Assembly: GCF_024266585.1 (NCBI RefSeq)
Contig: NZ_CP100647.1
Location: 1,655,001 to 1,719,000 of the forward strand
Origin: Xanthomonas sacchari
Lineage (GTDB): Bacteria > Pseudomonadota > Gammaproteobacteria > Xanthomonadales > Xanthomonadaceae
Direction of reading: 5' to 3'
DNA: 64,000 nt
The translations under genes were made by a program, and so were the position numbers. A model generated the notes under the pieces. It searched no databases. It was not told where the DNA came from and saw nothing but the letters and a program-made list of their open reading frames with translations. Each line of letters opens with the position of its first letter. Within the stretch, counting starts at the first letter, position 1. Shown here in pieces: positions 13,813 to 63,924 of the stretch.

Positions 13813-13963
13813 GTTTTCAATGCGCGCCTGGCGCCCGAGGGCGCGACTCGGAACGCGGGTCGTAGGCCAGCGGGACGTACAGGTTTCAATCCACGCGCCC
13901 GTGAGGGCGCGACGGACGGCAAGGGCCGCCCGCTCGCGACCATCGAGTTTCAATCCACGCGCC
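13813..13963 (-). CRISPR. Orphan type I-C CRISPR remnant, two spacers, truncated by REP
   Basis: A perfect 31-nt repeat lies at 13883-13913 (GTTTCAATCCACGCG...GGGCGCGAC), matching the known Xanthomonas type I-C repeat when read on the minus strand (ends ATTGAAAC). A degenerate copy is at 13813-13847 and a 17-nt truncated copy, GTTTCAATCCACGCGCC, at 13947-13963. Spacers are 35 nt (13848-13882) and 33 nt (13914-13946), normal for I-C. With transcription leftward, the degenerate copy is at the leader-distal end as usual, and the leader side is missing: repeat 3 breaks off directly against a REP element. No cas genes are present in the window. Confidence 0.8.
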
Positions 13964-14028
13964 AGTGTAGCCGCGGCTTCAGTCGCGACGCTTCAGCGGT
14001 AGCGCGTCGCGGCTGAAGCCGCTCCTGC
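13964..14028. repeat. REP-like palindrome abutting the CRISPR remnant
   Basis: Two arms related to TAGGAGCGGCTTCAGCCGCGAC: the left (13967-13988) is imperfect, the right (14006-14028) reads GTCGCGGCTGAAGCCGCTCCTGC. It joins CRISPR repeat 3 without spacing and marks the point where the array was lost. Confidence 0.85.
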
Positions 14029-14069
14029 GAAACGCCAGCGACCGCAAGGCGATACCGCACACTGCGCGC

Positions 14070-14105
14070 ATCCCCAATCCCCAATCCCCAATCCCCAATC
14101 CCCAA
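14070..14105. repeat. Heptamer-arm repeat, single arm (CAATCCC)n
   Basis: About five tandem 7-mers of CAATCCC, lying between the REP element and the terminator of the next receptor gene. No matching opposite arm is visible. Confidence 0.8.
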
Positions 14106-24943: not shown

Positions 24944-25891
24944 ATGCGTCGATTCGTATGCTGTTCGTTGGCCATCGCCCTCGGTCTGTTGTCCCACGCC
25001 GCGCAGGCGCGGGTTTGGGAACCCACGCCGGGCCATGTGCAGGTGCCGATCTGGCCCGGCGCGGTGCCGAATGCGTTGCCGCACCCGAAACCGGAATCGG
25101 CCGGCCCCGGGGCCAGGATCGACAACGTCAGCCGGCCGACCATGACCGTGTACCCGGCGCAGGGCCACAACACCGGCGCCGCGGTGGTGGTGTTTCCCGG
25201 CGGCGGCTACCAGATGTTGGCGATGGACCTTGAGGGCACGGAGATCTGCGACTGGCTGACCGCGCGCGGCATCACCTGCGTGCTGCTGAAGTACCGCGTG
25301 CCGAACTCCGGGCCGACCTGGGTCGACGACCGTCGCTACTACCCGAAGGTGCAGACCGCACTGCAGGACGCGCAGCGCACGCTGGGCCTGGTGCGCCAAC
25401 AGGCCGCCACCTGGGGCGTGGACCCGCACAAGATCGGAGTGATGGGGTTTTCCGCCGGCGGGCACCTGGTGGCCGCGGCCAGCACGCACTTCGCCGAGCG
25501 CACCTATCCGTTGGTGGATGCCGCCGATCATGTGAGTTGCCGCCCGGACTTCGCCATCGCCGTGTATCCGGGCCATCTGTGGGTGCACGAGGACGAGGAC
25601 GCCGACACCCGCGATTTCACCGATCTGGCATTGCGTCCGGACATCCGCGTCGCCGCCGACACCCCCCCGACCTTCCTGCTGCAGGCCCAGGACGACTACG
25701 TGGACGGCATCTCGCAGGTGCTGGCGTACTTCGTCGCGCTCAACCACGCCGACGTGCCGACGGAAATGCATATTTACGCCAAGGGCGGCCATGCCTTCGG
25801 CCTGCGCGCCAAGAACCTGCCGATCGCGCAGTGGCCGCAGCTGGTGGAGACCTGGCTGCATACGATCGGGGTGCTTGAGAGCCGGGAGTAG
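24944..25891 (+). CDS. Secreted alpha/beta hydrolase, acetyl-xylan esterase-like
   Basis: 315 aa with Sec signal peptide (cleaved near AQARVW). The fold is of the BD-FAE/acetyl-xylan esterase type: oxyanion loop VVFPGGGYQM, nucleophile elbow GFSAGGH, acid in QAQDDYVD and catalytic His in KGGHAFG. It probably removes acyl groups from plant cell-wall polysaccharides or related esters in the periplasm. Its last residues (LESRE and the TAG stop) fall inside the heptamer repeat that separates it from the convergent phospholipase gene. Confidence 0.85.
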   Translation: MRRFVCCSLAIALGLLSHAAQARVWEPTPGHVQVPIWPGAVPNALPHPKPESAGPGARIDNVSRPTMTVYPAQGHNTGAAVVVFPGGGYQMLAMDLEGTEICDWLTARGITCVLLKYRVPNSGPTWVDDRRYYPKVQTALQDAQRTLGLVRQQAATWGVDPHKIGVMGFSAGGHLVAAASTHFAERTYPLVDAADHVSCRPDFAIAVYPGHLWVHEDEDADTRDFTDLALRPDIRVAADTPPTFLLQAQDDYVDGISQVLAYFVALNHADVPTEMHIYAKGGHAFGLRAKNLPIAQWPQLVETWLHTIGVLESRE

Positions 25892-26032
25892 GGAGTCGGG
25901 ATTGGGGATGCGTAACAGCCGGGATCGGGGATCGGGGATTGGCAAACGCGTGTCAGCGCGCGGATTGCGCTTTCACGAATCCCAAAATCCCAAATCCCAA
26001 ATCCCGGACGTTGTCACGACTCCCCACTCCCG
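25881..26032. repeat. Heptamer-arm repeat between convergent genes
   Basis: Left arm of GGGAGTC/GGGATTG-type units, core beginning GGCAAACGCG, inner right edge GCGCTTTCACGAATCCC, and a right arm of CAAATCC units ending CTCCCCACTCCCG. The element overlaps the 3' ends of both flanking genes: it carries the esterase stop at 25889-25891 and the last about 19 codons of the phospholipase. Confidence 0.85.
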
Positions 26033-39122: not shown

Positions 39123-39857
39123 ATGGGTAGAGGCCCCTCGATCGAAGCCCGCAAGAACGCATCCGATGCGAAGCGCGGCAAGATTTTCACCAAGATCATC
39201 CGCGAGATCGGCGTCGCCGCGCGCGCCGGCGGCGGCGATCCGTCCAACAACCCGCGGCTGCGCGTGGCGATGGACAAGGGGCTGGCCTCGAACATGTCCA
39301 AGGACGTGATCGAGCGCGCGATCAAGAAGGCCACCGGCGAACTGGAAGGCGTGGAGTACGAGGAAGTGCGCTACGAGGGCTACGCCCCGGGCGGCGTGGC
39401 GGTGATCGTGGATTGCCTGACCGACAACCGCGTGCGCACCGTGGCCGACGTGCGCCATGCCTTCAGCAAGTGCGGCGGCAACATGGGCACCGATGGCTCG
39501 GTGGCCTTCATGTTCAAGCGCCTGGGCGTGCTCAGCTTCGCCGCCGGCGCCGACGAGGAGAAGATCACCGAAGCGGCGATCGAGGCCGGTGCCGACGACA
39601 TCGTGGTCTACCCCGAGGACGGCGCGATCGACGTGCTGACCGCGCCTGAGGCGTTCCAGGCGGTCAAGGACGCCATGGACGCGGCCGGCCTGGCCGCCGA
39701 CCACGCCGAAATCACTTTCCGCGCCGACAACGACATCGCCGTGGACGGCGACACCGCGGTGCAGGTACGCAAGCTGCTGGACATGCTGGAAGACCTGGAC
39801 GACGTGCAGAACGTCTATTCCAACGTGGACCAGGCCGCGCTGAGTGACGGGGGCTGA
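39123..39857 (+). CDS. yebC: YebC/PmpR family DNA-binding or translation factor
   Basis: 244 aa TACO1/YebC family protein, full length. It starts [20 protein letters not shown], the variant of the usual GHSKWANIKHRK start seen in xanthomonads, followed by [20 protein letters not shown] and the [16 protein letters not shown] block. Members were described as transcription regulators and more recently as factors relieving ribosome stalling. The gene leads the ruv genes. TAAAAT at 39082-39087 is a possible -10 box. Confidence 0.95.
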
Positions 39858-39866
39858 AGCCATGAC

Positions 39867-40014
39867 GACCGGGACCCGGGGCCCAAGACCCGGAACCCGG
39901 AGCGGCGCCGTGCCGGTGCCGGAGGCATTGCCGACATCAATGGCGGCAGCGAGCAGCGATGCTCGGGTGACCGGCGTTTTCCCGATTCCCGACTCCCGAA
40001 TCCCCAATCCCGGC
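39867..40014. repeat. Heptamer-arm repeat at yebC/ruvC junction
   Basis: Left arm of GGGACCCGGG/GGAACCCGG-type units (39867-39905, diverged), right arm TTCCCGATTCCCGACTCCCG and following CAATCCC (39977-40014). The right arm ends six bases before the codon where RuvC homologues start; the element therefore provides the start codon and N-terminus of ruvC here. Confidence 0.75.
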
Positions 40015-40542
40015 TCCACCACCACCCGCATCCTCGGCATCGACCCCGGCTCGCAACGCACCGGCGTCGGCATCATCGACGTGGACGCGGCCGGCCGTAC
40101 CCGGCACGTGCACCACACGCCGCTGCTGCTGCTGGGCGAGGGCGACTTCGCGCTGCGGCTCAAGCGCCTGCTGCACGGGCTGGATGCGCTGATCGAGGAG
40201 TACCGGCCGCAGGAAGTGGCGATCGAGCGGGTGTTCATGGGCAAGAGCGCCGACGCGGCGCTGAAGCTGGGCCATGCCCGTGGCGCGGCGATCTGCGCGG
40301 CGGTGCTGCGCGATCTGCCGGTACACGAGTACGCGGCCAAGGAGATCAAGCTCGCCATCGTCGGCAAGGGCGCGGCGGAAAAGCAGCAGGTGCAACACAT
40401 GGTTGGTCTCATGCTGAGCCTGACCGGCAAACTTCAGGCCGACGCCGCCGACGCGCTGGCGGTCGCCATCACCCATGCCCACGTGCGCGCCACCGCGCAG
40501 CGCCTGGGCGTCAGCACGCAGCAGGCGTGGAGCAGAAAATGA
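39910..40542 (+). CDS. ruvC: Holliday junction endonuclease RuvC with repeat-derived N-terminus
   Basis: Nuclease that cuts Holliday junctions with RuvAB. The core starting [15 protein letters not shown] is complete, with acidic catalytic residues in GIDPGS, AIERVF and DAADALA. Homologues start with Met-Thr directly before RILG, but here that codon (40021-40023) is ACC, and no ATG, GTG or TTG occurs between it and the repeat. Translation must begin inside the element: GTG 39910 (GGAG 7 nt upstream, chosen), ATG 39862, ATG 39940 or GTG 39967. The extra 20-55 residues include [11 protein letters not shown], translated from heptamers. The core fold looks intact. Confidence 0.85.
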
Positions 40543-40550
40543 GAAAGGCT

Positions 40551-40646
40551 GGGAATCGGAAGTCGGGAATCGGGAATGGGAACAGCGGAAGCGATGAAGC
40601 GGGCGTCCGCTTTGCCCATTCCCCATTCCCGTTTCCCCATTCCCGG
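40551..40646. repeat. Heptamer-arm repeat at ruvC/ruvA junction
   Basis: Left arm GGGAATCGGAAGTCGGGAAT and onward (40551-40580), core with GCGTCCGCTTTGCCCAT, right arm CATTCCC units (40615-40645). Arms are inverted copies of each other, so the segment can fold in the mRNA between the two genes. Confidence 0.88.
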
Positions 40647-40664
40647 CGCCTCCAGGGAGGCGCC
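40645..40664 (+). promoter_or_regulatory. Hairpin enclosing the ruvA ribosome-binding site
   Basis: Perfect inverted repeat GGCGCCTCC (40645-40653)/GGAGGCGCC (40656-40664) with 2-nt centre. The SD GGAGG (40656-40660), 6 nt before the ruvA ATG, lies wholly in the right arm, so a folded mRNA would hide it. Upstream translation of ruvC could open it. Confidence 0.65.
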
Positions 40665-40666
40665 CA

Positions 40667-41251
40667 ATGATCGGCCGTCTGCGCGGCATCCTGGCCTACA
40701 AGCAGCCGCCGTGGCTGGTGATCGACGTGGGCGGGGTGGGGTACGAGCTGGAGGCGCCGATGAGCACCTTCTACGACCTGCCCGATGTCGGGCGTGACGT
40801 GATCCTGTTCACCCACTATGCGCAGAAGGAGGACAGCGTGTCGCTGTACGGCTTCCTGCGCGAGGGCGAGCGGCGCCTGTTCCGCGACGTGCAGCGGGTC
40901 AGCGGGATCGGCGCGAAGATCGCGCTGGCGGTGCTGTCCGGGGTCAGCGTCGACGAGTTCGCGCGGCTGATCACCGCCGCCGACGTCACCGCGCTGACCC
41001 GCATTCCCGGCATCGGCAAGAAGACCGCCGAGCGCATGGTGGTGGAGTTGCGCGACCGCGCGGCCGACTTCAGCGGCGGCGCGCCGGTCACCGGGCAACT
41101 GGGCACCGACGCGGTGTCCGAGGCCACGGTGGCCCTGCAGCAGCTCGGCTACAAGCCCGCCGAGGCGGCGAAGATGGCGCGCGACGCCGCCGCCGACGGC
41201 GACGAGGTCGCCACGGTGATCCGCAAGGCCCTGCAGGCGGCGCTGCGCTGA
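40667..41251 (+). CDS. ruvA: Holliday junction DNA helicase subunit RuvA
   Basis: 194 aa, standard RuvA length. OB-fold N-terminus [20 protein letters not shown], helix-hairpin-helix region with [13 protein letters not shown] and [19 protein letters not shown] that binds the junction, and a C-terminal domain ([16 protein letters not shown]) that contacts RuvB. The SD lies in a hairpin (see 40645). It forms the RuvAB branch-migration complex with RuvB, whose gene is separated from it by kup. Confidence 0.97.
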
Positions 41252-41310
41252 CCGGTCGGTTGGCCCAACTCTCCGCTCCTTCTTCACGTTCTGGCGCTAC
41301 TCTTCCCACC

Positions 41311-43224
<1,914 letters not shown>

Positions 43225-43245
43225 GGCCGCGACGGGGTCGCGGCC
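43225..43245 (+). terminator. Hairpin directly after kup stop
   Basis: Perfect 9-bp stem GGCCGCGAC (43225-43233)/GTCGCGGCC (43237-43245), loop GGG, followed only by TTGGG. Probably weak as an intrinsic terminator; it may separate kup from ruvB. Confidence 0.5.
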
Positions 43246-43246
43246 T

Positions 43247-43400
43247 TGGGAATGGGGAAGCGGGAATGGGGAATAGGGTGAAGCAACGGCAACGGCGTTC
43301 GGCCTGAAAACGCAGCGGCGCCGCGAAAGTAGGCGCCAGCAGCGGCGCCAACCGCTACTATTGTCCGCTCGATTCCCCAATCCCGATTCCCCATTCCCGG
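43247..43400. repeat. Heptamer-arm repeat at kup/ruvB junction
   Basis: Left arm GGGAATGGGGAAGCGGGAAT and onward (43247-43279), core of about 90 bp, right arm GATTCCCCAATCCCGATTCC and onward (43371-43400). It ends 6 bp before the ruvB ATG, so it covers the place where the ruvB ribosome-binding site should be; no good SD remains. Confidence 0.88.
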
Positions 43401-43406
43401 CTTTCC

Positions 43407-44444
43407 ATGGACCGCATCATCGCCAGCAGCGCCACCCGCGAGGATGAGGCGGCCGAGGCCAGCATCCGCCCCAAGCGGCTGGACGACTACCTCGGCCAGC
43501 AGCCGGTGCGCGAGCAGCTGTCGATCTACATCGAGGCGGCCAAGGCGCGCGGGGAGGCGATGGACCATGTGCTGATCTTCGGGCCGCCGGGCCTGGGCAA
43601 GACCACGCTCAGCCATGTCATCGCCAACGAGCTGGGGGTCAACCTGCGGGTCACCTCCGGCCCGGTGATCGAGAAGGCCGGCGACCTGGCCGCGCTGCTG
43701 ACCAACCTGCAGCCGCACGACGTGCTGTTCGTCGACGAGATCCATCGGCTGTCGCCGGTGGTCGAGGAAGTGCTGTACCCGGCGATGGAAGACTTCCAGA
43801 TCGACATCATGATCGGCGAGGGCCCGGCCGCGCGCTCGATCAAGATCGACCTGCCGCCGTTCACCCTGATCGGCGCGACCACCCGCGCCGGCCTGCTGAC
43901 CGCGCCGCTGCGCGACCGCTTCGGCATCGTCCAGCGCCTGGCCTTCTACACCCCGGACGAGCTGGCGCGGATCGTGCGCCGCTCCGCCGGCATCCTCGGC
44001 ATCGCCTGCGACGCCGACGGCTGCGCCGAGATCGCCCGGCGCGCGCGCGGCACCCCGCGCATCGCCAACCGCCTGCTGCGGCGGGTCCGCGACTTCGCCC
44101 AGGTGCGCGCCGGCGGGCAGATCGACCTGGCGGTGGCGCAGGCGGCCACGCAGATGCTCAAGGTCGACGCCGAGGGCTTCGACGAGCTGGACCGGCGCAT
44201 GCTGCGCACCATCATCGAGTACTTCGACGGCGGCCCGGTCGGCGTCGAGTCGCTGGCCGCCTCGCTGTCGGAGGAGCGCGGCACCCTGGAGGACGTGATC
44301 GAGCCTTACCTGATCCAGCAGGGCTACCTGATCCGCACCGCCCGCGGGCGCATGGCGACCAACAAGGCGTATCTGCACTTGGGCTTGCAGCCCAAGAACC
44401 GGGAATTGGGAATCGGGACTGGGGAATCGGGGGCATTGTTCTAG
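43407..44444 (+). CDS. ruvB: Holliday junction DNA helicase motor RuvB
   Basis: Hexameric AAA+ ATPase of 345 aa that drives branch migration with RuvA. Walker [14 protein letters not shown], Walker [12 protein letters not shown], sensor 1 GATTRAGLL, arginine finger region [12 protein letters not shown], then the winged-helix domain ending HLGLQPKN. The last residues ([14 protein letters not shown]) are encoded by a heptamer repeat and replace the usual short C-terminus. They lie outside the folded core, so activity is probably retained. Confidence 0.97.
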
Positions 44445-44522
44445 GATGTTGTGGTTACCCAGCTATCGACAGGAGCGCCGCTCTTGACCTCCGATTCCCC
44501 AGTCCCTATTCCCCAATCCCCG
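44399..44522. repeat. Heptamer-arm repeat joining ruvB and ybgC
   Basis: Left arm CGGGAATTGGGAATCGGGAC and onward (44399-44432) is translated as the RuvB C-terminus; the core carries the RuvB stop (44442-44444) and AGGAG (44471-44475); the right arm GATTCCCCAGTCCCTATTCC and onward (44491-44522) is translated as the start of YbgC. The element thus replaced an entire gene junction. Confidence 0.87.
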
Positions 44523-44957
44523 CGTCTATTCAGTTGGCCGACACGCGTCTACTGGGAAGATACCGACGCCAGTGGCGTGGTCTACCACGCGCGCTACGTG
44601 GCCTTTCTGGAGCGGGCGCGCACGGAGTGGCTGCGGGCGCTGGGCCATGGCCAGGAGCGTCTGCGCCTGCAGCACGATCTGATGTTCGTGGTGCGTTCGA
44701 TGCAGCTCGACTTCCTGCGCCCGGCACGCCTGGACGATTCCCTGCAGGTCGGCGCCGCGCTGTCGCAGTGCAAGCGCGCCAGCCTGGTGTTCACGCAGTC
44801 GATCCATCGCGACGGCGAGTTGCTGCTGCGCGCGCAGGTGCGGCTGGCGGCCATCGGCGCCGGCAGCTTCCGCCCGCGCGGCATGGACGACGCGCTGTAC
44901 GACGCATTGAAAGTTCTTGAAATCACTGAAGCCGAATTACTGAGGAACGACGGATGA
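44484..44957 (+). CDS. ybgC: Acyl-CoA thioesterase YbgC, Tol-Pal associated
   Basis: Hotdog-fold thioesterase, 157 aa from TTG 44484, which has AGGAG at 8 nt; a GTG at 44451 is the other option. The core LFSWPTRVYWEDTDASGVVY with the catalytic Asp (EDTDASG) and HARYVAFLERARTEWLRALG is typical. Residues DSPVPIPQSPR before the core come from the heptamer repeat. First gene of the tol operon, overlapping tolQ by ATGA. It hydrolyses acyl-CoA or acyl-ACP at the membrane. Confidence 0.92.
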   Translation: MTSDSPVPIPQSPRLFSWPTRVYWEDTDASGVVYHARYVAFLERARTEWLRALGHGQERLRLQHDLMFVVRSMQLDFLRPARLDDSLQVGAALSQCKRASLVFTQSIHRDGELLLRAQVRLAAIGAGSFRPRGMDDALYDALKVLEITEAELLRNDG

Positions 44958-45730
44958 TCGCATTGCTCCTGGCCCTGCAGGACACGGTGGTGGAGGCGCT
45001 GCCGCAGGACGTGACCCAGACCGCCACCCAGGCCGTCGCCAGCACCGCCGCCCATGGCGGCATCAACTACCTGGACCTGATGGTCAAGGCCAGCCTGCCG
45101 GTCAAGGTGATCGTGCTGCTGCTGCTGCTCGGCTCGCTGATCAGCTGGGTGATCATCTTCCGCAAGGGCAAGGTGTTCAAGGACGCCAACCGCGAGGCCG
45201 ACGACTTCGAGAACCGCTTCTGGTCCGGCACCGACCTGAGCAAGCTCTACGCCGGTGCCACCGACCGCAACCGCGTGGTCGGCGGGCTGGAGGCGATCTT
45301 CGAGGCCGGCTTCCGCGAATTCACCCGCCTGCGCGACAAGCGTCGGCTCGATGCGCGCATCCAGCTGGAAGGCGCGCAGCGGGCGATGCGCGCCACCTAC
45401 GCGCGCGAGGTGGACCGCCTGGAGCGCAACCTGGAACTGCTCGCCAACATCGGCTCCACCGCGCCCTACGTGGGCCTGGTCGGCACCGTGTTCGGCATCA
45501 TGGTGACCATGCACGACATGATCAGCAGCGGCCAGCAGGCGGGCATCGCCGCGGTCGCGCCGGGCATCTCCGAGGCGCTGTTCGCCACCGCCATCGGCCT
45601 GTTCGTGGCGATCCCGGCGGTATGGGCCTACAACCGCTTCACCACCCGGGTCGAGCGCCTGGCCGTGCGCTTCGAGACCTTCTCCGAAGAGTTCAGTTCC
45701 ATCCTGCAGCGCCAGGCCAGCGGCGACTGA
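44954..45730 (+). CDS. tolQ: Tol-Pal system proton-channel subunit TolQ
   Basis: 258 aa inner-membrane protein of the MotA/TolQ/ExbB family with three membrane segments (about 50-70, 160-185 and 200-220). Signature NIGSTAPYVGLVGTVFGIM and GISEALFATAIGLFVAIPAV. With TolR it couples proton flow to TolA, which keeps the outer membrane attached during division. The start overlaps ybgC by 4 bp. Confidence 0.97.
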   Translation: MIALLLALQDTVVEALPQDVTQTATQAVASTAAHGGINYLDLMVKASLPVKVIVLLLLLGSLISWVIIFRKGKVFKDANREADDFENRFWSGTDLSKLYAGATDRNRVVGGLEAIFEAGFREFTRLRDKRRLDARIQLEGAQRAMRATYAREVDRLERNLELLANIGSTAPYVGLVGTVFGIMVTMHDMISSGQQAGIAAVAPGISEALFATAIGLFVAIPAVWAYNRFTTRVERLAVRFETFSEEFSSILQRQASGD

Positions 45731-45767
45731 GCGTCGCCCGCCTGCCCACGACTCCCAGGATTCCCGC

Positions 45768-46194
<427 letters not shown>

Positions 46195-46205
<11 letters not shown>

Positions 46206-47196
46206 CGCCGAAAACCGACCGCCCCTGGCCAGGGGCGACAATGACGGCCTGATGTACGGCATCGCGCTGGCGGTGGCCGTGCATGTGCTGATCGCGCTGC
46301 TGTTCTTCCTGGCCTGGTGGTGGTCGCCGGTGCGCCAGGTCGAACCCGCTGCCGGTTCGCCCATGGTCGAGGCCTCGCTGGTGGTCTCGGCCGCCGACGT
46401 GCGCTCGGCGCAGAAGGCGGTGAAGGACGCGCCCAAGCCCTTGCCCGAGCCGCTGCCCGAGCCGGTCAAGGACGTCGCCGAGGAAGACACGGTGCCGCCG
46501 CCGCAGCCGCTCCCCACGCCCAAGCCGCAGCAGGCGCCGACCCCGCAGCAGCAGAAGGCACAGGACTTCGTTCCGGTCCCCGACAAGGTCGACCAGGACC
46601 GCGCCACCCGCACCGCGATCTCCCAGGAAAAGGAGAAGCAGGAGCAGGAGGCCAAGCGCCGCCAGGAACAGATCGACCTGACCGAGCAGAAGCGCCAGCA
46701 GGAGGCCGAGCAGAAGCAGCGCCTGGCCGCGCAGCAGGAAGAGGAGCGGCAGAAGAAGATCGCCGAGATCCGCAAGCAGCGCGAACAGGCCGAACGCGAG
46801 GCCAAGCTGGCCCAGCAGAAGCTGCAGCAGCTGGCCGACGTGCGCGCCAAGCAGGCCTCGGCCGCGGCGGCGACCACCGCGCAGCCGACGCCGGGTCAGA
46901 ACGGCACCAATACCGACCTGCAGGCCAAGTACGCCGCGGCGATCCAGCAGGCCGTGCTGAGCCAGTGGGTGCGCCCGGATTCGGTGCCGCTGGGGCAGAA
47001 GTGCAAGATCTCGATCACGCAGATTCCCGGCGGCCAGGTGATGGACGCCAAGGTCAGTCCCGACTGTCCCTACGACGAGGCCGGCCGGCGTTCGATCGAG
47101 GCCGCCGTGCTGCGCGCCCAGCCGTTGCCCTACCGTGGCTTCGAGAGCGTTTTCTCGCGCAATCTGACGTTCAACTTCACCGCCCAGGACCAATGA
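46195..47196 (+). CDS. tolA: Tol-Pal system bridging protein TolA
   Basis: 333 aa. One N-terminal membrane anchor (about residues 20-41, ALAVAVHVLIALLFFLAWWW), a Pro-rich stretch (80-125), a long Lys/Glu/Gln/Ala coiled coil (about 130-230) spanning the periplasm, and a C-terminal domain with two Cys (GQKCKISITQIPGGQV, VSPDCPYDEAGRRSIEAAVL) that binds TolB/Pal. The start lies inside tolR. Confidence 0.95.
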
Positions 47197-47368
47197 CCCC
47201 CGGCCGCCGCCGCTGCGTTCGCGCGCGGCCGGCCGTCCACCCGACTGGCGATGGGCGATAATGTGCCGCGTCCTGCCATCGGCTTCACATGGCGATGGTT
47301 CATGATTGCGAATACGTTCACCCGCGCATTGCTATCTCTTGCGCCTTTCCGATCCCGCTGAGCGACCC

Positions 47369-48688
47369 ATGAAGAAACTGCCGCGCTGGCTTGCCGTTCT
47401 CACCGCCCTGTTGCTGCCTCTCGCCGCGTCCGCGCAGGACAAGGGCCTGGAAATCGACATCGTCGGCGGCAATGCCTCGGCGACCCCGATCACCGTGGTG
47501 CCGATGCCGTACCAGGGATCGGCGACCCCGCCGAGCACCGACGTCGCCGCGGTGGTCCGCGCCGACCTGGATCGCTCCGGCCAGTTCCGCAATCTGCCCG
47601 AGTCGCAGATCGTCGAGCGTCCGACCCGCGGCAGCGAGGTGCAGTTCGCCACCTGGCGCGCGCTCAAGCAGAGCTACCTGGTCGTCGGCCGGGTGATGGA
47701 CGCCGGCGAAGGCGCCTACCGCGTCGAATACGAGCTGTTCGACGTGGGCAAGGGCGAGCGCATGCTCGGCCTGGCCATGACCGCCCGCGCCAACGCCATG
47801 CGCGACGTCGCCCACCAGATGGCCGACGCCATCTACGAGAAGATCACCGGCGTGCGCGGCGCGTTCTGGACCCGCATCGCCTACGTCACCGCCAGCGGCA
47901 AGGGCGGGGCGATGCGCTATGCGCTGATGGTCGCCGACTCCGACGGCTACAACCCGCAGACCATCGTCCGCTCGGCCGAGCCGCTGCTGTCGCCGAACTG
48001 GAGCCCGGACGGCAAGAAGCTGGCCTACGTGAGCTTCGAACGCGGCAACTCCTCGATCTACATCCAGGACATCGCCACCGGCGCGCGCCAGCTGGTGTCC
48101 AGCTTCCGCGGCATCAACGGCGCCCCGTCGTTCTCGCCGGACGGCAAGAGGCTGGCGCTGGCCCTGTCGCGCAGCGGCAACCCGGAGATCTACGTGATGG
48201 ATCTGGGCAGCAAGCAGCTGACCCAGCTGACCAACCACTTCGGCATCGACACCGAGCCGACCTGGGCGCCGGACGGCAACAGCATCTACTTCACCTCGGA
48301 CCGCAGCGGCCGCCCGCAGATCTACCAGGTGCCGGCCACCGGCGGCAGCGCCACCCGCATCACCTTCCAGGGCAACTACAACGCGACCCCGAGCGTGTCC
48401 TTCGACGGCAACAAGCTGGTCGTGGCCCAGGGCAGCGGCAACACCTACAAGATCGCGATGATGGACCGCAGCCTGGGTTCGCCGCGCTGGAGCACGCTGT
48501 CGACCGGTTCGCTGGACGAATCGCCGAGCTTCGCCCCCAACGCCAGCATGGTGCTGTATGCGGCGCGCGAAGGCGGCCGCGGCGTGCTGTACGCGGTCTC
48601 GGCCGATGCCCGCGTGCGGCAGCGCCTGGTGCTCGCCGATGGCGACGTGCGCGAACCGTCCTGGTCGCCGTATCGCACCGCACGTTGA
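47369..48688 (+). CDS. tolB: Tol-Pal periplasmic beta-propeller protein TolB
   Basis: 439 aa from ATG 47369, the start of a clear signal peptide ([20 protein letters not shown], cleaved before QDKG); an earlier in-frame start at 47306 would hide it. N-terminal alpha/beta domain, then a six-bladed propeller with repeated SPDGKK/SPDGKR/APDGNS blades. Interacts with Pal and TolA. Confidence 0.97.
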
Positions 48689-48713
48689 CATGTAAGTTTG
48701 GTGTTAATATTCC
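48685..48713 (+). promoter_or_regulatory. Possible promoter of pal-cpoB inside tolB end
   Basis: TTGACA at 48685-48690 (perfect -35, overlapping the tolB TGA) and TATTCC at 48708-48713 at 17-nt spacing; TAATAT at 48705 is another -10 candidate at too short a distance. It could allow separate expression of abundant Pal. Confidence 0.45.
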
Positions 48714-48756
48714 GCTGTTGAACCCCTCATCGGCCCAGGAGCCACAAGGTATCGCC

Positions 48757-49275
48757 ATGAACAAGACCACCCGCGTTCTGCTTGTTTCGCTGTTGTCCGT
48801 CGCAGCTCTGGCCGGCTGCTCCAAGAAGGTCAAGGAACAGCCCCAGACCGACACCACCGGCACCACCGGCACCACCGTTCCGACCGGCCCGTCGACCTCC
48901 GGCCTGTACGGCCCGGGCGACCTGGACACCGATTCCTGCCTGCGTCAGCGCGTGGTCTACTTCGACCTGGACAAGGACACCGTGAAGCCGGAATTCCAGG
49001 CGATCATGGCGTGCCACGCCAAGTACCTGCGTGACCGTCCGTCCTCGCGCATCACCCTGCAGGGCAACACCGACGAGCGTGGTTCGCGCGAGTACAACAT
49101 GGGCCTGGGCGAGCGTCGTGCCAACGCCGTGTCCTCGGCGCTGCAGGCCAACGGTGGCTCGGCTGCGCAGCTGACCGTGGTCAGCTACGGCGAAGAGCGT
49201 CCGGTCTGCACCGAGTCGAACGAGTCCTGCTGGTCGCAGAACCGTCGCGTCGAGATCGTCTACACGGCGCAGTAA
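48757..49275 (+). CDS. pal: Peptidoglycan-associated lipoprotein Pal
   Basis: 172 aa outer-membrane lipoprotein with lipobox ALAGC (Cys at 22), a Thr/Gly/Pro linker, and the OmpA-like domain binding diaminopimelate: VYFDLDKDTVKPEF, LQGNTDERGSREYNMGLGER and VSYGEERPVC. ATG 48757 starts the signal. TolA pulls on Pal to draw the outer membrane inward during division. Confidence 0.97.
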   Translation: MNKTTRVLLVSLLSVAALAGCSKKVKEQPQTDTTGTTGTTVPTGPSTSGLYGPGDLDTDSCLRQRVVYFDLDKDTVKPEFQAIMACHAKYLRDRPSSRITLQGNTDERGSREYNMGLGERRANAVSSALQANGGSAAQLTVVSYGEERPVCTESNESCWSQNRRVEIVYTAQ

Positions 49276-49281
49276 GAAAAG

Positions 49282-50109
49282 ATGCGTATCGGTGTCCTTA
49301 CATCGATGATCGTCGCGGCGGCCCTCGTGGCCGCCGCGCCGGCTCATGCGCAGCGCGCAAGCCTGGCCGACCGCGTTTCCGCGCTCGAGCAGCAGGCCAT
49401 GAATACCCAGGCCAACACCGACATCCTGAACCAGCTCAACCAGCTGCGGACCCAGATGCAGTCGATGGAGGCCACGATCGAACAACTGCAGCACAGCAAC
49501 GACCAGCTCAAGCAGCAGATCAAGGACCAGTACCTGGACCTGGATGGCCGCGTGGGCAGGCTCGAGAGTGGTGCAGGGGCAGGGGCGACGCCGCCGTTGC
49601 CGCCGGCCAATGGCCCCGCACCGGCTGCCGCACCGGCCGCGCCCGCGGGCAAGCCGTCCGCCGTTGCCGAGCCGCCGCCGTCGGTGCACGGCGACGCCGG
49701 CACCCTGGCCGCCGCCGGCGACGAGCGGGCCGCCTACAATGTCGCCTTCGATGCCCTGAAGGCCGGCAAGTACGCCGACTCGGCGAACCTGTTCCAGAGC
49801 TTCCTGCAGGCCTACCCGAACGGCGTGTATGCGCCGAACGCGCTGTACTGGCTGGGCGAGAGCTACTACGCCACCAAGAACTTCCAGTTGGCCGAGGCCC
49901 AGTTCCAGGACCTGATCGGCCGCTACCCGACCCACGACAAGGCGTCGGGCGCGCTGCTCAAGTTGGGCCTGTCCCAGTACGGCGAAGGCCGCGTGCAGGA
50001 CGCCGAGCAGACCCTGCAACAGGTCGGTGCGAAGTATCCTGGGTCCGATGCCGCGCGGACCGCGCAGGACCGCCTGCAGTCGATCCGTCTCGGCCAGCAG
50101 TTGCGCTGA
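49282..50109 (+). CDS. cpoB: Cell-division coordinator CpoB (YbgF)
   Basis: 275 aa periplasmic protein; signal to PAHAQ; trimeric coiled coil (about residues 25-95, LADRVSALEQQAMNTQANTD), an Ala/Pro linker (97-140) and three TPR repeats (AYNVAFDALKAGKYADSANL onward). It links PBP1B and the Tol machine. It begins 6 bp after pal and is the last gene of the tol series. Confidence 0.95.
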   Translation: MRIGVLTSMIVAAALVAAAPAHAQRASLADRVSALEQQAMNTQANTDILNQLNQLRTQMQSMEATIEQLQHSNDQLKQQIKDQYLDLDGRVGRLESGAGAGATPPLPPANGPAPAAAPAAPAGKPSAVAEPPPSVHGDAGTLAAAGDERAAYNVAFDALKAGKYADSANLFQSFLQAYPNGVYAPNALYWLGESYYATKNFQLAEAQFQDLIGRYPTHDKASGALLKLGLSQYGEGRVQDAEQTLQQVGAKYPGSDAARTAQDRLQSIRLGQQLR

Positions 50110-50155
50110 GCCCCTTACGCTGCCGCCGTCGTCGCGGGAGCAGTCTTCTCCCGCC

Positions 50156-50833
50156 ATGGCCGCCGTTCCCAGCGATATCGTCCAAAGCCCGCTGCCCCGC
50201 CTGAAGCTGACGGAGATCTTCCTGTCGCTGCAGGGCGAGGCCGAGAGCGCCGGCTGGCCCACCGTGTTCGTGCGCCTGACCGGCTGCCCGTTGCGCTGCA
50301 GTTACTGCGACACCGCCTACGCCTTCCATGGCGGCCAGTGGTGGGACATCGACGCGATCCTCGAAGAGGTGGCGCGCCACGGCGTGCGCCATGTCTGCGT
50401 GACCGGCGGCGAGCCGCTGGCGCAGAAGCGCTGCCTGCAACTGCTGCAGCGCCTGTGCGATGCCGGCTACGACGTGTCGCTGGAGACCTCCGGCGCGCTG
50501 GACATCGCCGAGGTCGACCCGCGGGTGTCGCGGGTGCTCGACATCAAGACCCCGGCGTCGCAGGAAGCGCACCGCAACCGCTGGGAGAACCTGCCGCTGC
50601 TGACCGCGCGCGACCAGATCAAGTTCGTCCTGTGCGGCCGCGCCGACTACGAGTGGGCGCGGGACGTGGTCGCCGAACACCGGCTGGACACGCGCTGCAC
50701 GGTCTGGTTTTCCCCGAGCAAGAGCGAACTGACCGCGCGCGATCTGGCCGACTGGATCGTCGCCGACCGCCTGCCGGTACGGTTCCAGATGCAGTTGCAC
50801 AAGCTGCTGTGGAACGACGAGCCGGGGCGGTAG
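50156..50833 (+). CDS. queE: 7-carboxy-7-deazaguanine synthase QueE
   Basis: Radical SAM enzyme, 225 aa, making the deazaguanine ring in preQ0 synthesis. N-terminal [20 protein letters not shown] and the cluster motif CPLRCSYC (CxxxCxxC), then [13 protein letters not shown] 50156; a 7-bp inverted repeat GCGGGAG/CTCCCGC (50134-50154) lies just before the start. It is followed by queC across a heptamer element. Confidence 0.96.
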
Positions 50834-50849
50834 CTGCGCTGGTGCGCAG

Positions 50850-51008
50850 CCGGGAATCGGGAATGGAGAATCGGGAATCGGCAAAGCGCTGCATAGCAGG
50901 CGTGTTTGTGCCTGTTTTGCTTCCGCTTCTCGAAGCTTGTCCAGCTTTCCGGTCCTGCGTGGCTGTTACGCTCTCCCCATTCCCGATTCTCCATTTCCCA
51001 TTCCCGGC
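50850..51008. repeat. Heptamer-arm repeat at queE/queC junction
   Basis: Left arm CGGGAATCGGGAATGGAGAA and onward, inner edge GGCAAAGCG (50850-50887); core of about 90 bp; right arm CCCATTCCCGATTCTCCATT and onward (50974-51007). It ends 7 bp before the queC ATG and covers nearly the whole 181-bp spacer. A hairpin GCTGCGC/GCGCAGC (50833-50850) joins its left edge. Confidence 0.88.
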
Positions 51009-51014
51009 CCCCAG

Positions 51015-51680
51015 ATGAAAAACGCCGTCGTCCTTCTCTCCGGTGGCATGGACTCCGCCGTCGTCGTCGCTATCGCCCGTGCGCAGGGCTTCGCCGTGCA
51101 TGCCCTGAGCGTGCGCTATGGCCAGCGCCATACCTCCGAACTGGACGCGGCCGCGCGGGTCGCCAGCGCCCTGGGTGCGGTGGCGCACAAGACCGTCAAC
51201 GTCGACCTGCGCAGCATCGGCGGCTCCGCGCTGACCGACGACATCGAGGTGCCGGACGCCGGCGGCGAGGGCATCCCGGTGACCTACGTGCCGGCGCGCA
51301 ACACCATCATGCTGTCGGTGGCGCTGGGCTGGGCCGAGGTGCTGGGTGCGGCCGACATCTTCTGCGGGGTCAACGCGGTGGACTATTCCGGCTATCCCGA
51401 TTGCCGCCCCGAGTTCATCGACGCGTTCCAGACCCTGGCCAACCTGGCGACCAAGGCCGGGGTGGAGGGTGCCGGGCTGCGCGTGCATGCGCCGTTGCAG
51501 CACATGAGCAAGGCCGACATCGTGCGCGAGGGCGTGCGCCTGGGCGTGGATTTCGGCCTGACCGTGTCTTGCTACCGCGCCGACGACGCCGGCCGCGCCT
51601 GTGGCCATTGCGACGCCTGCCGCCTGCGCGCGGCGGGCTTCGCCGATGCCGGCGTCGCCGACCCGACCCACTACGCCTGA
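51015..51680 (+). CDS. queC: 7-cyano-7-deazaguanine (preQ0) synthase QueC
   Basis: 221 aa ATP-dependent enzyme converting 7-carboxy-7-deazaguanine to preQ0. PP-loop [13 protein letters not shown] at the N-terminus, then [20 protein letters not shown], and the zinc site [23 protein letters not shown] 51015; an in-frame start at 50937 would be translated through the repeat. Product used for queuosine in tRNA. Confidence 0.97.
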
Positions 51681-59172: not shown

Positions 59173-59264
59173 GGGAATTCCTCTTGGGGGTAACAGACAA
59201 GATGGCGTCACAATAGACAGACTAAAGCATGCGCTGTGATTCAACGTTCAATGGCACCTGATTG

Positions 59265-62200
59265 ATGAATGCTATCGAGAAATCTTCCGTGCCGGCACGC
59301 CTGCGCGAACGCCGCGCCGCGATCGACGGCGCGCTGACCCGCGACCGCGGCCGCCTGCTGGGCCTATGGTCGCGCTGGCAGGGCGCACCGGGCAATGCCG
59401 CGCTGGAGACCGCGTTCGAGCAGGCGCTGCAGGCGTCGCAGGCGCGTTGCGCCGCGCGCGCGGCGCAGCAGCCGGCGATCACCCTGGACCCGCAGTTGCC
59501 GATCGCGCGCGAGGCCGAGCGCATCGTGGCGCTGATCCGCGACCACCAGGTGGTGGTGATCGCCGGCGAGACCGGCTCGGGCAAAACCACGCAGTTGCCG
59601 AAGCTGTGCCTGGCCGCCGGACGCGGCGCCGCCGGCATGATCGGCTGCACCCAGCCGCGGCGCATCGCCGCGCGCGCGGTGGCCAGCCGCGTGGCCGAGG
59701 AACTGCGCACGCCGGTGGGCGAGACGGTGGGCTTCCAGGTGCGCTTCAACGACCGGGTCGGCGAACAGACCCGGATCAAGTTCATGACCGACGGCATCCT
59801 GCTGGCCGAGATCGCCAGCGACCGCTGGCTGTCCAGCTACGACACGATCATCGTCGACGAGGCGCACGAGCGCAGCCTCAACATCGATTTCCTGCTCGGC
59901 TACCTCAAGCAACTGCTGCGCAAGCGCCCGGACCTGAAGGTCATCGTGACCTCGGCGACGATCGACACCGCGCGCTTCGCCGCGCATTTCGACGATGCGC
60001 CGGTGATCAGCGTGGAAGGCCGGACCTATCCGGTGGAGGTGCGCTATCGGCCGCTGGAAGAGCCGGGAGTGGAGAGTGGGGATGGCCAGCCTGCGGCTGT
60101 CGAGGAGCGCGCGGGATTGGCAGAAGCCCGTGACGCCGAACGCGCGCGGCCAACCGCCGTTTCGAATCCCGAATCCCGAATCCCCACTGCCGGCCTCTCG
60201 GTCAACGATGCGATCGTGGCGGCGGTGGACGAAATCACCCGGCTGGATCCGCGCGGCGACGTGCTGGTGTTCCTGCCCGGCGAGCGCGAGATCCGCGATG
60301 CGCACCATGCGCTGGAACGGCGCAAGTACCGCGAGACCGAGGTGCTGCCGCTGTACGCGCGGCTCTCCAACGCCGACCAGGACCGGGTGTTCAACCCCGG
60401 TCCGCGGCGGCGCCTGGTGCTGGCCACCAATGTCGCCGAAACCTCGCTGACGGTGCCGCGCATCCGCTACGTGGTCGATCCCGGCTACGCGCGGGTCAAG
60501 CGCTACAGCCCGCGGCAGAAGCTCGACCGCCTGCACATCGAGCCGATCTCGCAGGCCAGCGCCAACCAGCGCAAGGGCCGTTGCGGCCGCATCGCCGAAG
60601 GCATCTGCTACCGGCTGTACGCCGAGGCGGACTTCCAGGCACGGCCGGAGTTCACCGATCCGGAGATCCGCCGCTCCAGCCTGGCCGGGGTGATCCTGCG
60701 CATGCTGCAGCTGGGGCTGGGACGGATCGAGGATTTCCCGTTCCTGGAGCCGCCGGACGAGCGCGCGGTGGCCGATGGCTGGCAGCAGCTGGTGGAACTG
60801 GGCGCGGTCGGCGAGCCGGACCGCCATGGCGTGCGCAAGCTCACCGAGATCGGCCGCAAGATGGCGCGGCTGCCGGTGGACGTGAAGCTGGCGCGGATGC
60901 TGGTGGCGGCGCAGCAGCACGGCTGCCTGCGGCCGATGCTGGTGATCGCCGCGTTCCTGGGCATCCAGGACCCGCGCGAGCGCCCGCCGGAGGCGCGCGA
61001 GGCCGCCGACAACGCGCATGCCAAGTTCGCCGATGCGCGTTCGGAATTCGTCGGCATCCTGCGTCTGTGGGACGGCTACCGGCAGGCGCACGAGGACCTG
61101 ACCCAGTCCAAGCTGCGTGACTGGTGCGGACGGCATTTCCTGGGCTTCCTGCGCATGCGCGAGTGGCGCGAACTGCACCGCCAGCTGCATCTGCTGTGCG
61201 CGGAGCTGGGCTGGACCGAGGAGCCGGCGGAGGCCTCCATGCGGCCGTTGCTGGCCGGCGCCGCGGCGCCCGCACCGGCACGCGATGCCGAGACTGCGGC
61301 GCGCGCGACCCGCGGGCAACTGCACCGTGCCGCGCGCCTGGCCCGCGAAGGGCGCGCCGGCGGCGCGCCGCCGGCCACGCCGGTGCCGGCGGCGCAGACG
61401 CCGCCACCCCCGGCACCCGCCGAGGCGGGCGAGGCGCCGCGCGCCAGCGAACGCGAGCGTGCCGCCGCCTACCAGGCGCTGCACCGCGCGCTGCTGGCGG
61501 GCCTGCCGACCCAGGTCGGCCACCGCACCGAGAAGGGCGATTTCCTGGCGCCGCGGCAGCGCCGTTTCCTGTTGTTCCCCGGCTCGGCGCTGGCGCGCAA
61601 GCCGCCGCCGTGGGTGCTGCCGGCGACGCTGCTGGACACGCAGAAGGTGTGGGGCCTGACCAATGCGGCGATCGAGCCGGACTGGGTGATCGCCGAGTTG
61701 CCGCACCTGCTCGCGCGCAAGCACTTCGATCCGCACTGGTCGCGCGCGCAGGGGCAGGTGCTGGCCTCCGAGCAGATCAGCCTGTTCGGGCTGGTGCTGG
61801 CGCCGAAGAAGCCGGTGCACTACGGCCGCATCGATCCCCCCGGCGCGCACGAGCTGTTCGTGCGCCAGGGCTTGGTGCCGGGCGAGATCAACACCCGTGC
61901 CAGCTTCGTCGCCGACAACCAGAAGGTGCTGGCGCAGGCGCATGAGGAAGAAGCCAAGCTGCGCCGCGCCGGCATCGTCGCCGACGAGGACTGGCAGGCG
62001 CGCTGGTACCTGGACCGGATCCCCGGCGAGATCTACTCCGCCGCCGGCCTGGACGCCTGGTGGAAGGCGCTGGCGCCGGAGCAGCGGCGCGCGCTGCACT
62101 GGTCGCTGGCCGACCTGCTGCCAGGCGAGGGCAGCGCCGCCGAGCGCTACCCCGCGTACTTCCCGCTGGGCGATGCGCGGCTGGCGCTGCACTACCGCTT

Positions 62201-63491
62201 CGAGCCGGGCGCGGCCGACGATGGCGTGACCCTGGAGGTGCCGGTGCACCTGCTCAATGCGCTGGACCCGGCGCGGCTGTCGTGGCTGGCGCCGGGCTTC
62301 GTCGCCGACAAGGCCGCGGCGCTGATCCGCAGCCTGCCCAAGGCGCTGCGCCGCAACTACGTGCCGGCGCCGGACTTCGCCCGCGCGTTCTACGAGGCGT
62401 TCCCGCAGCCCAGCGCCGACGACCTCCGCGGCGAACTGGCGCGCTTCCTGCAACGCGCCACCGGCGCGCCCTTGAGCGCGCTGGAGTTCGACGAGAGCAC
62501 GCTGGAGCCGCATCTGCGCATGAACCTGCGCCTGCGCGACGACGCCGGCAAGGTGCTGGCCGAATCGCGCGACCTGGACGCGCTGCGCGCGCGCTTCGGC
62601 GAGCGTGCCGGACAGGCCTTCGCCGCGCGCGCCGGCCGCGCCATGGCCGCCACCGGGCTGCGCGAGTTCCCGGCGACGCCGATTCCGCTGCAGGTGCCGG
62701 GCGAAGCCGGGGTGCCGGCGTATCCGGCGCTGGTGGACGAGGGCGACAGCGCCGCGCTGCGGATCTTCGCCGACCGTGCGCAGGCCGAGGCCGCGCATCC
62801 GCGCGGGGTGCGCCGGCTGCTGGAGATCGCCCTGGCCGACAAGGTCAAGCAGGCGCGCAAGCAGTTGCCGGTGTCGCCCAAGACCGGACTGCTGTATGCG
62901 GCGATCGAGTCGCAGGAGCGCCTGCGCGGCGACCTGGTGGAGGCGGCGTTGAACGCGCTGCTGGAGCAGGGGCTGGAGGCGATCCGCGACGCGGACCGCT
63001 TCGCGCAGCGCCGCGATGCCGCCGCCAAGCAGTTGTTCGGCGAGGCGATGGAGCGGCTGAAGCTGGCCGAGGCGATCATGGGCGCGGCCGCGGAACTGAA
63101 GCCGCAGCTGGAGTCGCCGTTGATGGGCTGGGCCAGCGGCAATCTCGACGACCTGCGCGCGCAACTGGCGGCGCTGCTGCATCCGGGCTTCCTGCGCGAG
63201 ACCCCGGCCACCGCGCTGGCGCAGTTCCCGCGCTACCTGCGGGCGATGCTGTTGCGCGCCGAGCGCGCCAAGCGCGATCCGGCCCGCGACCAGGCGCGCA
63301 TGCTGGAGCTGAAGCCGTTCGTCGACGCGCTGGCCGAGGCGGCCGCGGCCGGGCGCGGAGACACGCCGGAGTGGCAGGCGCTGCGCTGGGACCTGGAAGA
63401 GCTGCGGGTGTCGCTGTTCGCCCAGGAACTGGGCGCCCGCGCCGGCATCTCGGCCAAGAAGCTGGCGCAGCGGGTGGCTCAACTGCGGTGA
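59265..63491 (+). CDS. hrpA: ATP-dependent RNA helicase HrpA with internal repeat insertion
   Basis: DEAH-box RNA helicase of 1408 aa (E. coli about 1300), linked in other bacteria to rescue of stalled, collided ribosomes. Walker A GETGSGKTTQ (about 100-109), IIVDEAHERS (about 195), VTSATIDTARF, NVAETSLTVP and SASANQRKGRCGR. C-terminal DUF3418 region to the end. Two extra pieces are seen: residues about 266-310 are a translated heptamer element in frame between YPVEVRYRPLEE and LSVNDAIVAAVDE, and an Ala/Pro-rich linker lies at about 665-730. The ATG at 59265 follows an in-frame TTG. Confidence 0.95.
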   Translation: MNAIEKSSVPARLRERRAAIDGALTRDRGRLLGLWSRWQGAPGNAALETAFEQALQASQARCAARAAQQPAITLDPQLPIAREAERIVALIRDHQVVVIAGETGSGKTTQLPKLCLAAGRGAAGMIGCTQPRRIAARAVASRVAEELRTPVGETVGFQVRFNDRVGEQTRIKFMTDGILLAEIASDRWLSSYDTIIVDEAHERSLNIDFLLGYLKQLLRKRPDLKVIVTSATIDTARFAAHFDDAPVISVEGRTYPVEVRYRPLEEPGVESGDGQPAAVEERAGLAEARDAERARPTAVSNPESRIPTAGLSVNDAIVAAVDEITRLDPRGDVLVFLPGEREIRDAHHALERRKYRETEVLPLYARLSNADQDRVFNPGPRRRLVLATNVAETSLTVPRIRYVVDPGYARVKRYSPRQKLDRLHIEPISQASANQRKGRCGRIAEGICYRLYAEADFQARPEFTDPEIRRSSLAGVILRMLQLGLGRIEDFPFLEPPDERAVADGWQQLVELGAVGEPDRHGVRKLTEIGRKMARLPVDVKLARMLVAAQQHGCLRPMLVIAAFLGIQDPRERPPEAREAADNAHAKFADARSEFVGILRLWDGYRQAHEDLTQSKLRDWCGRHFLGFLRMREWRELHRQLHLLCAELGWTEEPAEASMRPLLAGAAAPAPARDAETAARATRGQLHRAARLAREGRAGGAPPATPVPAAQTPPPPAPAEAGEAPRASERERAAAYQALHRALLAGLPTQVGHRTEKGDFLAPRQRRFLLFPGSALARKPPPWVLPATLLDTQKVWGLTNAAIEPDWVIAELPHLLARKHFDPHWSRAQGQVLASEQISLFGLVLAPKKPVHYGRIDPPGAHELFVRQGLVPGEINTRASFVADNQKVLAQAHEEEAKLRRAGIVADEDWQARWYLDRIPGEIYSAAGLDAWWKALAPEQRRALHWSLADLLPGEGSAAERYPAYFPLGDARLALHYRFEPGAADDGVTLEVPVHLLNALDPARLSWLAPGFVADKAAALIRSLPKALRRNYVPAPDFARAFYEAFPQPSADDLRGELARFLQRATGAPLSALEFDESTLEPHLRMNLRLRDDAGKVLAESRDLDALRARFGERAGQAFAARAGRAMAATGLREFPATPIPLQVPGEAGVPAYPALVDEGDSAALRIFADRAQAEAAHPRGVRRLLEIALADKVKQARKQLPVSPKTGLLYAAIESQERLRGDLVEAALNALLEQGLEAIRDADRFAQRRDAAAKQLFGEAMERLKLAEAIMGAAAELKPQLESPLMGWASGNLDDLRAQLAALLHPGFLRETPATALAQFPRYLRAMLLRAERAKRDPARDQARMLELKPFVDALAEAAAAGRGDTPEWQALRWDLEELRVSLFAQELGARAGISAKKLAQRVAQLR
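60062..60194. repeat. Heptamer-arm repeat inside hrpA coding sequence
   Basis: Left arm CCGGGAGTGGAGAGTGGGGA and onward (60062-60085), core of about 75 bp containing GATTGGCAGAAGC, right arm CGAATCCCGAATCCCGAATC and onward (60161-60194). It is in frame, so the reading frame of hrpA is kept. Confidence 0.85.
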
Positions 63492-63623
63492 TTCGGGATT
63501 GGGGATTCGGGATTGGTGGTGGGATTCCCGCGCTGTTCCCGCACTATCCGCGTGGGCAGCATCCTTGTGGGAAAAGCTTCTGTCCCGAGGCTGTTCCCGC
63601 GCTATCCCAGTGGGCAGCATTCT

Positions 63624-63686
63624 TGCAGGAGGGACTTCAGTCCCGACGCCTTCAGCGGCAGGCGGTGGGGCTGAAGCCCCTCCCAC
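63624..63686. repeat. REP-like element, GGGGC subtype
   Basis: Left arm GCAGGAGGGACTTCAGTCCC with GAC, right arm GTGGGGCTGAAGCCCCTCCC with AC. Its left arm belongs to the second 58-bp tandem copy. Confidence 0.75.
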
Positions 63687-63782
63687 AAAAGCGAGGCGCC
63701 GTGTGGACGGTCAAGCGATTTGCTCTGCAACGGCGCGTGGTGTTTGGTGCCAAGCACTGATGCTGTCGCGTCTGCTGATGTC

Positions 63783-63844
63783 GTAAGAGCGGCTTCAGCC
63801 GCGACGCATGGCGCCACGACGGTCGAGGCTGAAGCTGCTCCTAC
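63783..63844. repeat. REP-like palindrome, somewhat diverged
   Basis: GTAAGAGCGGCTTCAGCCGC with GAC and an imperfect inverted arm GTCGAGGCTGAAGCTGCTCC with TAC. Confidence 0.8.
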
Positions 63845-63924
63845 GACATGCTGTCGCCACCCTCGACATTTCAGCCAGCGGCAATCCGCCGAATCCCCAC
63901 TCCCCACTCCCCAATCCCCGCCCC

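Follow-up and report, generated by a model that had tools for sequence, protein, structure and literature searches.

Matched arms, inverted spacers and genome dialects among the facing G-rich heptamer arrays of Xanthomonas

The closest described relatives of the repeats treated here are the G-rich heptamers of Rehm et al. 2015 (PMC4692102). In the sections of that paper considered here, GGGAATC and GGGGA(C/T)T repeats are reported from X. campestris and X. citri. They come preferentially in fours and often form convergent inverted pairs (70 in Xcc, 75 in Xac); they lie close to stop and start codons, and 83% keep their context between Xcc and Xac. Lengths differ, the type of a pair is usually kept, and the repeats form quadruplexes in vitro, according to circular dichroism (CD) data, with no function assigned. 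The present arrays were studied in a stretch of 64,000 nucleotides of the Xanthomonas sacchari genome (the window, by which the whole stretch is meant) and belong to the same family: they are tandem GGGANTN heptamers with at least one GGGAATC, mostly in runs of four, and close neighbours converge in 29 cases and diverge in one. The search of Rehm et al. required at least one GGGAATC, so that the pure GGGATT and GGGAC arrays included here make up a wider set. The new elements are the anatomy of the four-unit array with its edges, the agreement in type between the two arrays (arms) of a pair, the inversion of the spacer between them, the dialects of genomes, and sites that are filled in some genomes and unfilled in others. 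None of the following is taken up in the sections of Rehm et al. considered: the matching of one arm to the other, the inversion of spacers, dialects, alleles with and without the element, and the spread of the arrays across the family. All are described below.

Other systems share some of these traits. REPINs and their RAYT proteins, as presented in the portion of PMC3116915 consulted, also involve short repeats that occur singly or in inverted pairs, in hundreds per genome and mainly outside genes, but those repeats are palindromes, not heptamer arrays, and the present arrays show no correlation with RAYTs. Template switching between inverted repeats, according to excerpts of PMC8604942, homogenises the arms and inverts the spacer, the same two features found here; there and in the corresponding part of PMC8794818, it concerns scattered single repeats, whereas the present case would extend it to an entire dispersed family. 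The DNA uptake sequence dialects of Neisseriaceae (PMC3630211, in the part used) are likewise genome-wide, lineage-specific versions of a dispersed motif, but the arrays are 28 bp long and stand at conserved sites, and no linked import tracts were seen. No account of matching arms, inverted spacers or dialects in these repeats was found in a search of the open-access literature (text without supplements), and no further paper on them was recognised there beyond Rehm et al. 2015. Searching the literature by sequence letters, or for X. albilineans, brought up nothing about these repeats, and PMC4666352 mentions neither Xanthomonas nor heptamers nor GGGAATC.

The window contains 21 copies of GGGAATC and 24 of GGGATTG, as compared with means of 4.94 and 6.11 after shuffling, and neither count was reached in any of 100 shuffles. 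All ten loci at which the original prediction had placed heptamer arrays do carry them. In the whole genome (4,889,028 bases), the pattern (GGGAATN)3, allowed two mismatches at most, matches 309 times forward and 345 times in reverse (overlaps included), and the reversed control gives no match on either strand. A scoring scan of 864 kb, made up of the window and 40 stretches of 20 kb taken at even intervals, found 87 arrays, as against one in the reversed sequence. The window holds 16 of the 87 and is thus about 2.8 times richer than the 800 kb of the other stretches, which hold 71 arrays and 24 of the 29 convergent pairs. Extrapolated to the whole genome, those 40 stretches would correspond to about 430 arrays and about 150 pairs.

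In the paired form, two arrays of four GGGANNN units face each other across a spacer of 24-198 bp, at gene ends, in keeping with the predicted location. Exactly four units are found in 68 of the 87 sampled arrays. A profile of these 68 arms has GC (0.85 each) and then C or T on the outer side, units of the form GGGA[A/T]T[C/G] and, after unit four, G, N, A (0.57), A (0.72), N, A (0.66), G (0.70) and C (0.69), so that the inner edge reads loosely as GNAANAGC. The prediction that the inner edges are related to one another is supported; the edge exists, though it is loose. All 29 convergent pairs lie less than 300 bp apart. The same sample has 29 single arrays; of 27 tested, seven possess a degenerate inward partner and none an outward one. 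Units were assigned to type A (GGGAAT), T (GGGATT) or C (GGGAC). Within the window's own genome, pairs in which both arms have at least four units are A/A in 22 cases and T/T in three, with no mixed pair, while singles are T in 17 cases, A in five and undecided in two (Fisher p 7e-6 for the contrast between pairs and singles). Four intact GGG tracts are present in 246 of 356 arms, three in 95 and two in 15.

Twelve paired sites (five in the ruv-que segment of the window, four in L127 and three in L146) were compared over up to 20 genomes of the genus. This yielded 210 rows, of which 178 passed limits on arm score and length and 177 were tabulated (G012 at ruvB-ybgC fell outside the list). In 172 of the 177, the left arm is of the same type as the right (one such row being tied on both sides), though types differ between species. 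When right arms were shuffled within sites 5000 times, 78 rows agreed on average and never more than 102.

The type itself follows the genome. Hits to the A, T and C patterns, which are overlapping matches of three patterns unequal in sensitivity, number, for example, 441/284/4 in G000, 521/177/1 in G008, 71/651/56 in G009, 63/654/106 in G003, 12/60/565 in G015 and 47/23/379 in G004; in two reduced genomes, G001 and G012, they number 1/2/8 and 1/4/5. Unit linkers agree most within an arm (0.695), less when different sites of the same genome are compared (0.501), and still less when the site is shared but not the genome (0.296) or when both differ (0.254). Site ancestry, therefore, predicts the letters of a unit hardly better than chance, and genome identity predicts them much better.

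Spacers, for their part, turn around between species. In 1293 genome pairs compared with fixed margins, 480 spacers pass the criterion for direct similarity and 15 that for inverted similarity. The inverted cases come from three of the 12 sites (ruvC-ruvA, L127a and L127b), with none at the other nine; at these three, the segment between inverted repeats exists in both orientations between species, as in a phase-variable inverton. In printed alignments, counted by eye, G010 matches the reverse complement of G003 at 85 of 94 columns at ruvC-ruvA, and G014 matches inverted G003 at 98 of 108 columns at L127b. Both orientations of the ruvC-ruvA spacer occur in both main clades as judged by flank identity (G009 and G013 versus G006 and G010; G003, G014 and G002 versus G017 and G018), which implies recurrent inversion or exchange of orientations. 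Some outer units in the printed alignments stay in place while inner units flip, placing the breakpoints inside the arms.

Are these mobile insertions? An HrpA-like gene bears on the question. It contains an element of 99-135 nt in 12 of 20 genomes and a linker of 45-51 nt in the other eight, giving the discrete filled and unfilled sites that one would expect of a miniature inverted-repeat transposable element (MITE). The site differs even among close relatives, being filled in G000 and G007 and unfilled in G010 and G011. All 20 segments have lengths that are multiples of three, all 20 frames are open, and the frame runs through the element in each of the 12 filled genomes, as foreseen in the claim that copies supply codons. 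No target duplication is visible at this site, the unfilled linkers being too diverged to exclude a short one. The ruvC-ruvA gap was measured at 67 named loci: 19 have 13 nt and 16 have 16 nt, with no arrays in the examples viewed; in Xanthomonas, the gap is 124-127 nt, with arms. Mere local expansion of heptamers, with no empty sites, is accordingly not what is seen.

The arrays are unevenly spread over the family. Among 34 named genomes besides that of the window, Xanthomonas proper gives 235-518 pattern hits, X. albilineans 5, GPE 39 3 and X. chitinilytica none. Fourteen Stenotrophomonas have 0-2 hits and Stenotrophomonas sp. MMGLT7 has 458; seven Pseudoxanthomonas have 0-144 and Luteimonas marina 63. 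Of 297 genomes drawn from the family, 172 gave one hit or more, and within genera the counts range from hundreds to none (the reversed control of G085 exceeds its hits, so low counts in this draw mean little). The near-total loss in X. albilineans and the all-or-little pattern in other genera point to a cause that could be sought.

We think there is about an even chance that the arrays occupy old, fixed sites whose letters are rewritten by template switching, by copying or exchange and by selection, and that they are not a jumping element. During replication, the nascent strand would switch template between the two arms, which would render the arms alike and flip the spacer. Copying between arrays of one genome, along with the exchange of whole cassettes between species, would keep a genome near one dialect. 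A hairpin or quadruplex may be useful where transcripts end, and for that reason selection would maintain the position, the four G-tracts and the way the arms face each other. By analogy, template switching is the most likely process at single sites, since homogenised arms and inverted spacers are the outcome named for it in the excerpts of PMC8604942. As to function, we infer selection on the hairpin or on the G-tracts, to which the retention of four G-tracts, facing arms and gene ends points.

Several observations weigh against this reading. Template switching does not explain the dialects; copying between arrays, cassette exchange or a factor acting in trans must be added. Over the five ruv-que sites, spacers of different type have an identity of 0.404 (344 pairs), no better than shuffled spacers (0.436), as compared with 0.706 (256 pairs) for spacers of the same type; in other words, a change of type goes along with a different spacer. 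A change of both arms around a kept spacer (identity at least 0.70) was found at only two of the 12 sites, in 57 of 358 high-identity pairs with ties left out. The agreement between arms needs tempering as well. The 12 sites were picked because they are occupied in G000, 32 of the 210 rows were dropped by the limits on arm score or length, and five of those dropped, at yebC-ruvC (G000, G011, G013, G010 and G008), combine a GGGCCC-like left arm with an A- or T-type right arm, which would bring the agreement to 172 of 182. The rows share ancestry, so the shuffles overstate their independence. Finally, arms of one type match further only at unit position 6 (0.873 versus 0.826) and not at position 5, and position 7 is unmatched between arms (0.526 versus 0.511, p 0.11).

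Perhaps, then, exchange of cassettes is all there is: A, T and C types would be old alternative alleles at each junction, shuffled by recombination between species, and a dialect would reflect the mix of ancestries. This is a real possibility, if a distinctly minor one. At flank identities of 0.97-1.00, spacers of the same type are 0.890 identical (n=18) and those of different type 0.439 (n=33), as against 0.436 after shuffling, and X. arboricola has both A-type (the L101 group, L106, L107 and L109) and T-type (L104) alleles at kup-ruvB. The flanking coding sequence argues the other way. Flanking genes at ruv-que sites are equally similar for same-type and different-type pairs (0.933 and 0.934), and even within 40 bp, flank identity is independent of type (differences of -0.005 to +0.008 across 10 bins). 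Import by recombination with long tracts was rejected on this ground. The dissimilarity of different-type spacers and the lack of linkage to the flanks mean that whole cassettes differ, with sharp edges. Arms have also changed in place: at L127d, the spacer is kept (identity 0.89-0.91) and both arms are T in G014, G003 and G002 and C in G017; L146a is a second such site; and one arm has changed type at L146d (in G007) and at yebC-ruvC. Both kinds of change, of arms around a kept spacer and of whole cassettes, thus seem to occur. At L146d, the left arm of L197 (G002) includes an insert, some 39 nt long and similar to part of the G000 HrpA element, which suggests ectopic exchange through arms. 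Or perhaps a sequence-specific agent acting in trans sets one dialect for the hundreds of arrays in a genome, be it a templated writer of four-unit arms or a reader, such as an uptake-signal receptor or hairpin-binding protein, with a specificity that drifts from species to species. Where a lineage such as X. albilineans lost the agent, the arrays would disappear throughout the genome and the sites would remain. We consider this unlikely; the junctions of X. albilineans, where length is kept and arms are not, are what one would expect if maintenance of the arrays was lost.

The remaining alternatives fare worse. An RNA hairpin under selection, with arms kept alike by compensatory point substitutions, could account for the strong predicted folds (two elements folded as RNA, on both strands, gave z of -6.2 to -8.2) and for the recurrence of rare units at the paired unit position (19/130, versus 17/390 at unpaired positions; Fisher p 2e-4, the rows not being independent). 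It is nevertheless improbable: unit position 7 lacks covariation, all eight units change together, the dialects of genomes go unexplained, Rfam has no match within window positions 39500-51200, and a simple scan placed no terminator-like site at any array. The MITE-sized mobile element of the original prediction, or something like a REPIN mobilised by a transposase in trans, would fit inverted arms, dispersed copies and the existence of filled and unfilled sites. We regard it as quite improbable, and the claim of mobility lacks support, because no target duplication is visible at HrpA (though diverged linkers could hide a short one), no spacer sequence common to the sampled copies was seen (spacers of different sites have a mean local score of 7.0-7.2, given with no shuffle baseline) and the only extra copies noticed are local tandem duplications. 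The candidate mover was rejected too: Y1_Tnp (PF01797), the RAYT domain, is present in 24 of 27 genomes but does not track the arrays, being absent from X. cissicola G030 (289 array hits) and present in 1-4 copies in six Stenotrophomonas with 0-2 hits. Ordinary slippage of simple sequence could have produced the longer arrays (for example, those reaching at least 15 units in Stenotrophomonas sp. MMGLT7 and the long GGGACTC stretch at L127c of G017) and the mixing of units within arms, but it is very improbable as a general explanation of four-unit arrays (68 of 87) in convergent pairs (29 to 1) with matched arms and flipped spacers.

Concerted change across many short, dispersed, noncoding sites is unusual in bacteria. 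Here, orthologous sites are hardly more alike than random ones, whereas unrelated sites of one genome are. If confirmed, this would make the arrays a natural setting for testing, side by side, template switching in replication, gene conversion among very short repeats and the role of quadruplex-forming repeats in bacteria. Since these repeats serve in strain typing, there is also a warning: in evolution, they are not independent slipping loci.

Within the window, an element had been expected at most operon junctions, but only five of the 13 junctions of the yebC-queC segment hold one. At yebC-ruvC, the left arm (39871-39898, + strand) is of a degenerate GGGACCC type and the right arm (39984-40011, -) of a mixed GGGATT/GGGAAT type. 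Four-unit arms are found on both sides at ruvC-ruvA (40551-40578, +, and 40617-40644, -, around a 38-nt spacer at 40579-40616, seen in both orientations among orthologues), kup-ruvB (43248-43275, +, and 43371-43398, -), ruvB-ybgC (44401-44428, +, and 44493-44520, -) and queE-queC (50852-50879, +, and 50978-51005, -). The left arm at ruvB-ybgC lies within the RuvB reading frame. The description of paired copies with inverted arms holds for one dispersed family of facing arms but fails at two of the named loci, which are single arrays: 6108-6163 (-), with eight units (four GGGATTG, then the GGGAATC type) followed by the inner edge GCAAAAGCG, and 14069-14103 (-), of GGGATTG. A pair at 25884 has an irregular left arm (25884-25911, +) and two interrupted array pieces on the right (25977-26031, -). 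In the HrpA-like reading frame, a degenerate left arm (60065-60084, +) faces a right arm at 60164-60191 (-). The array at 63488-63515 (+) contains the TGA stop codon of the open reading frame 59262-63491, as had been claimed for some copies, and faces one at 63891-63918 (-), 375 bp away.

The arrays themselves are not clustered regularly interspaced short palindromic repeats (CRISPR), as the prediction had it: identical repeats around unique spacers are absent, and the heptamers run head-to-tail (cas genes were not searched for). Beside the single array at 14069, positions 13884-13967 hold what we take, by its look, to be a remnant of a type I-C CRISPR, with one full repeat, a spacer of about 33 nt and a truncated second repeat. 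Palindromes resembling repetitive extragenic palindromic (REP) sequences, built around GGAGCGGCTTCAGCCGC, lie at 13974-14030 and 63560-63860, and the same kind is found inside the queE-queC spacer of G006 and G010. Next to the ruvC-ruvA element, at 40645-40666, a hairpin, GGCGCCTCC..GGAGGCGCC, surrounds what is probably the ribosome site of ruvA; the two sides of the hairpin read GGCACCGCC..GGCGGTGCC in X. arboricola relatives, as if compensated. Local tandem duplications were observed at ruvC-ruvA of L165 (G008), with three copies of the element at a period of 111 bp, at L127 6917-7135, with two copies, and at L120 13495-14058, with four single arrays about 145-245 bp apart. The window's genome shares an identical TolQ with Xanthomonas sp. 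NCPPB 1128 and F10, and L062, titled Bacillus subtilis, has a tol/ruv region like that of Stenotrophomonas and is probably a mislabelled or contaminated assembly.

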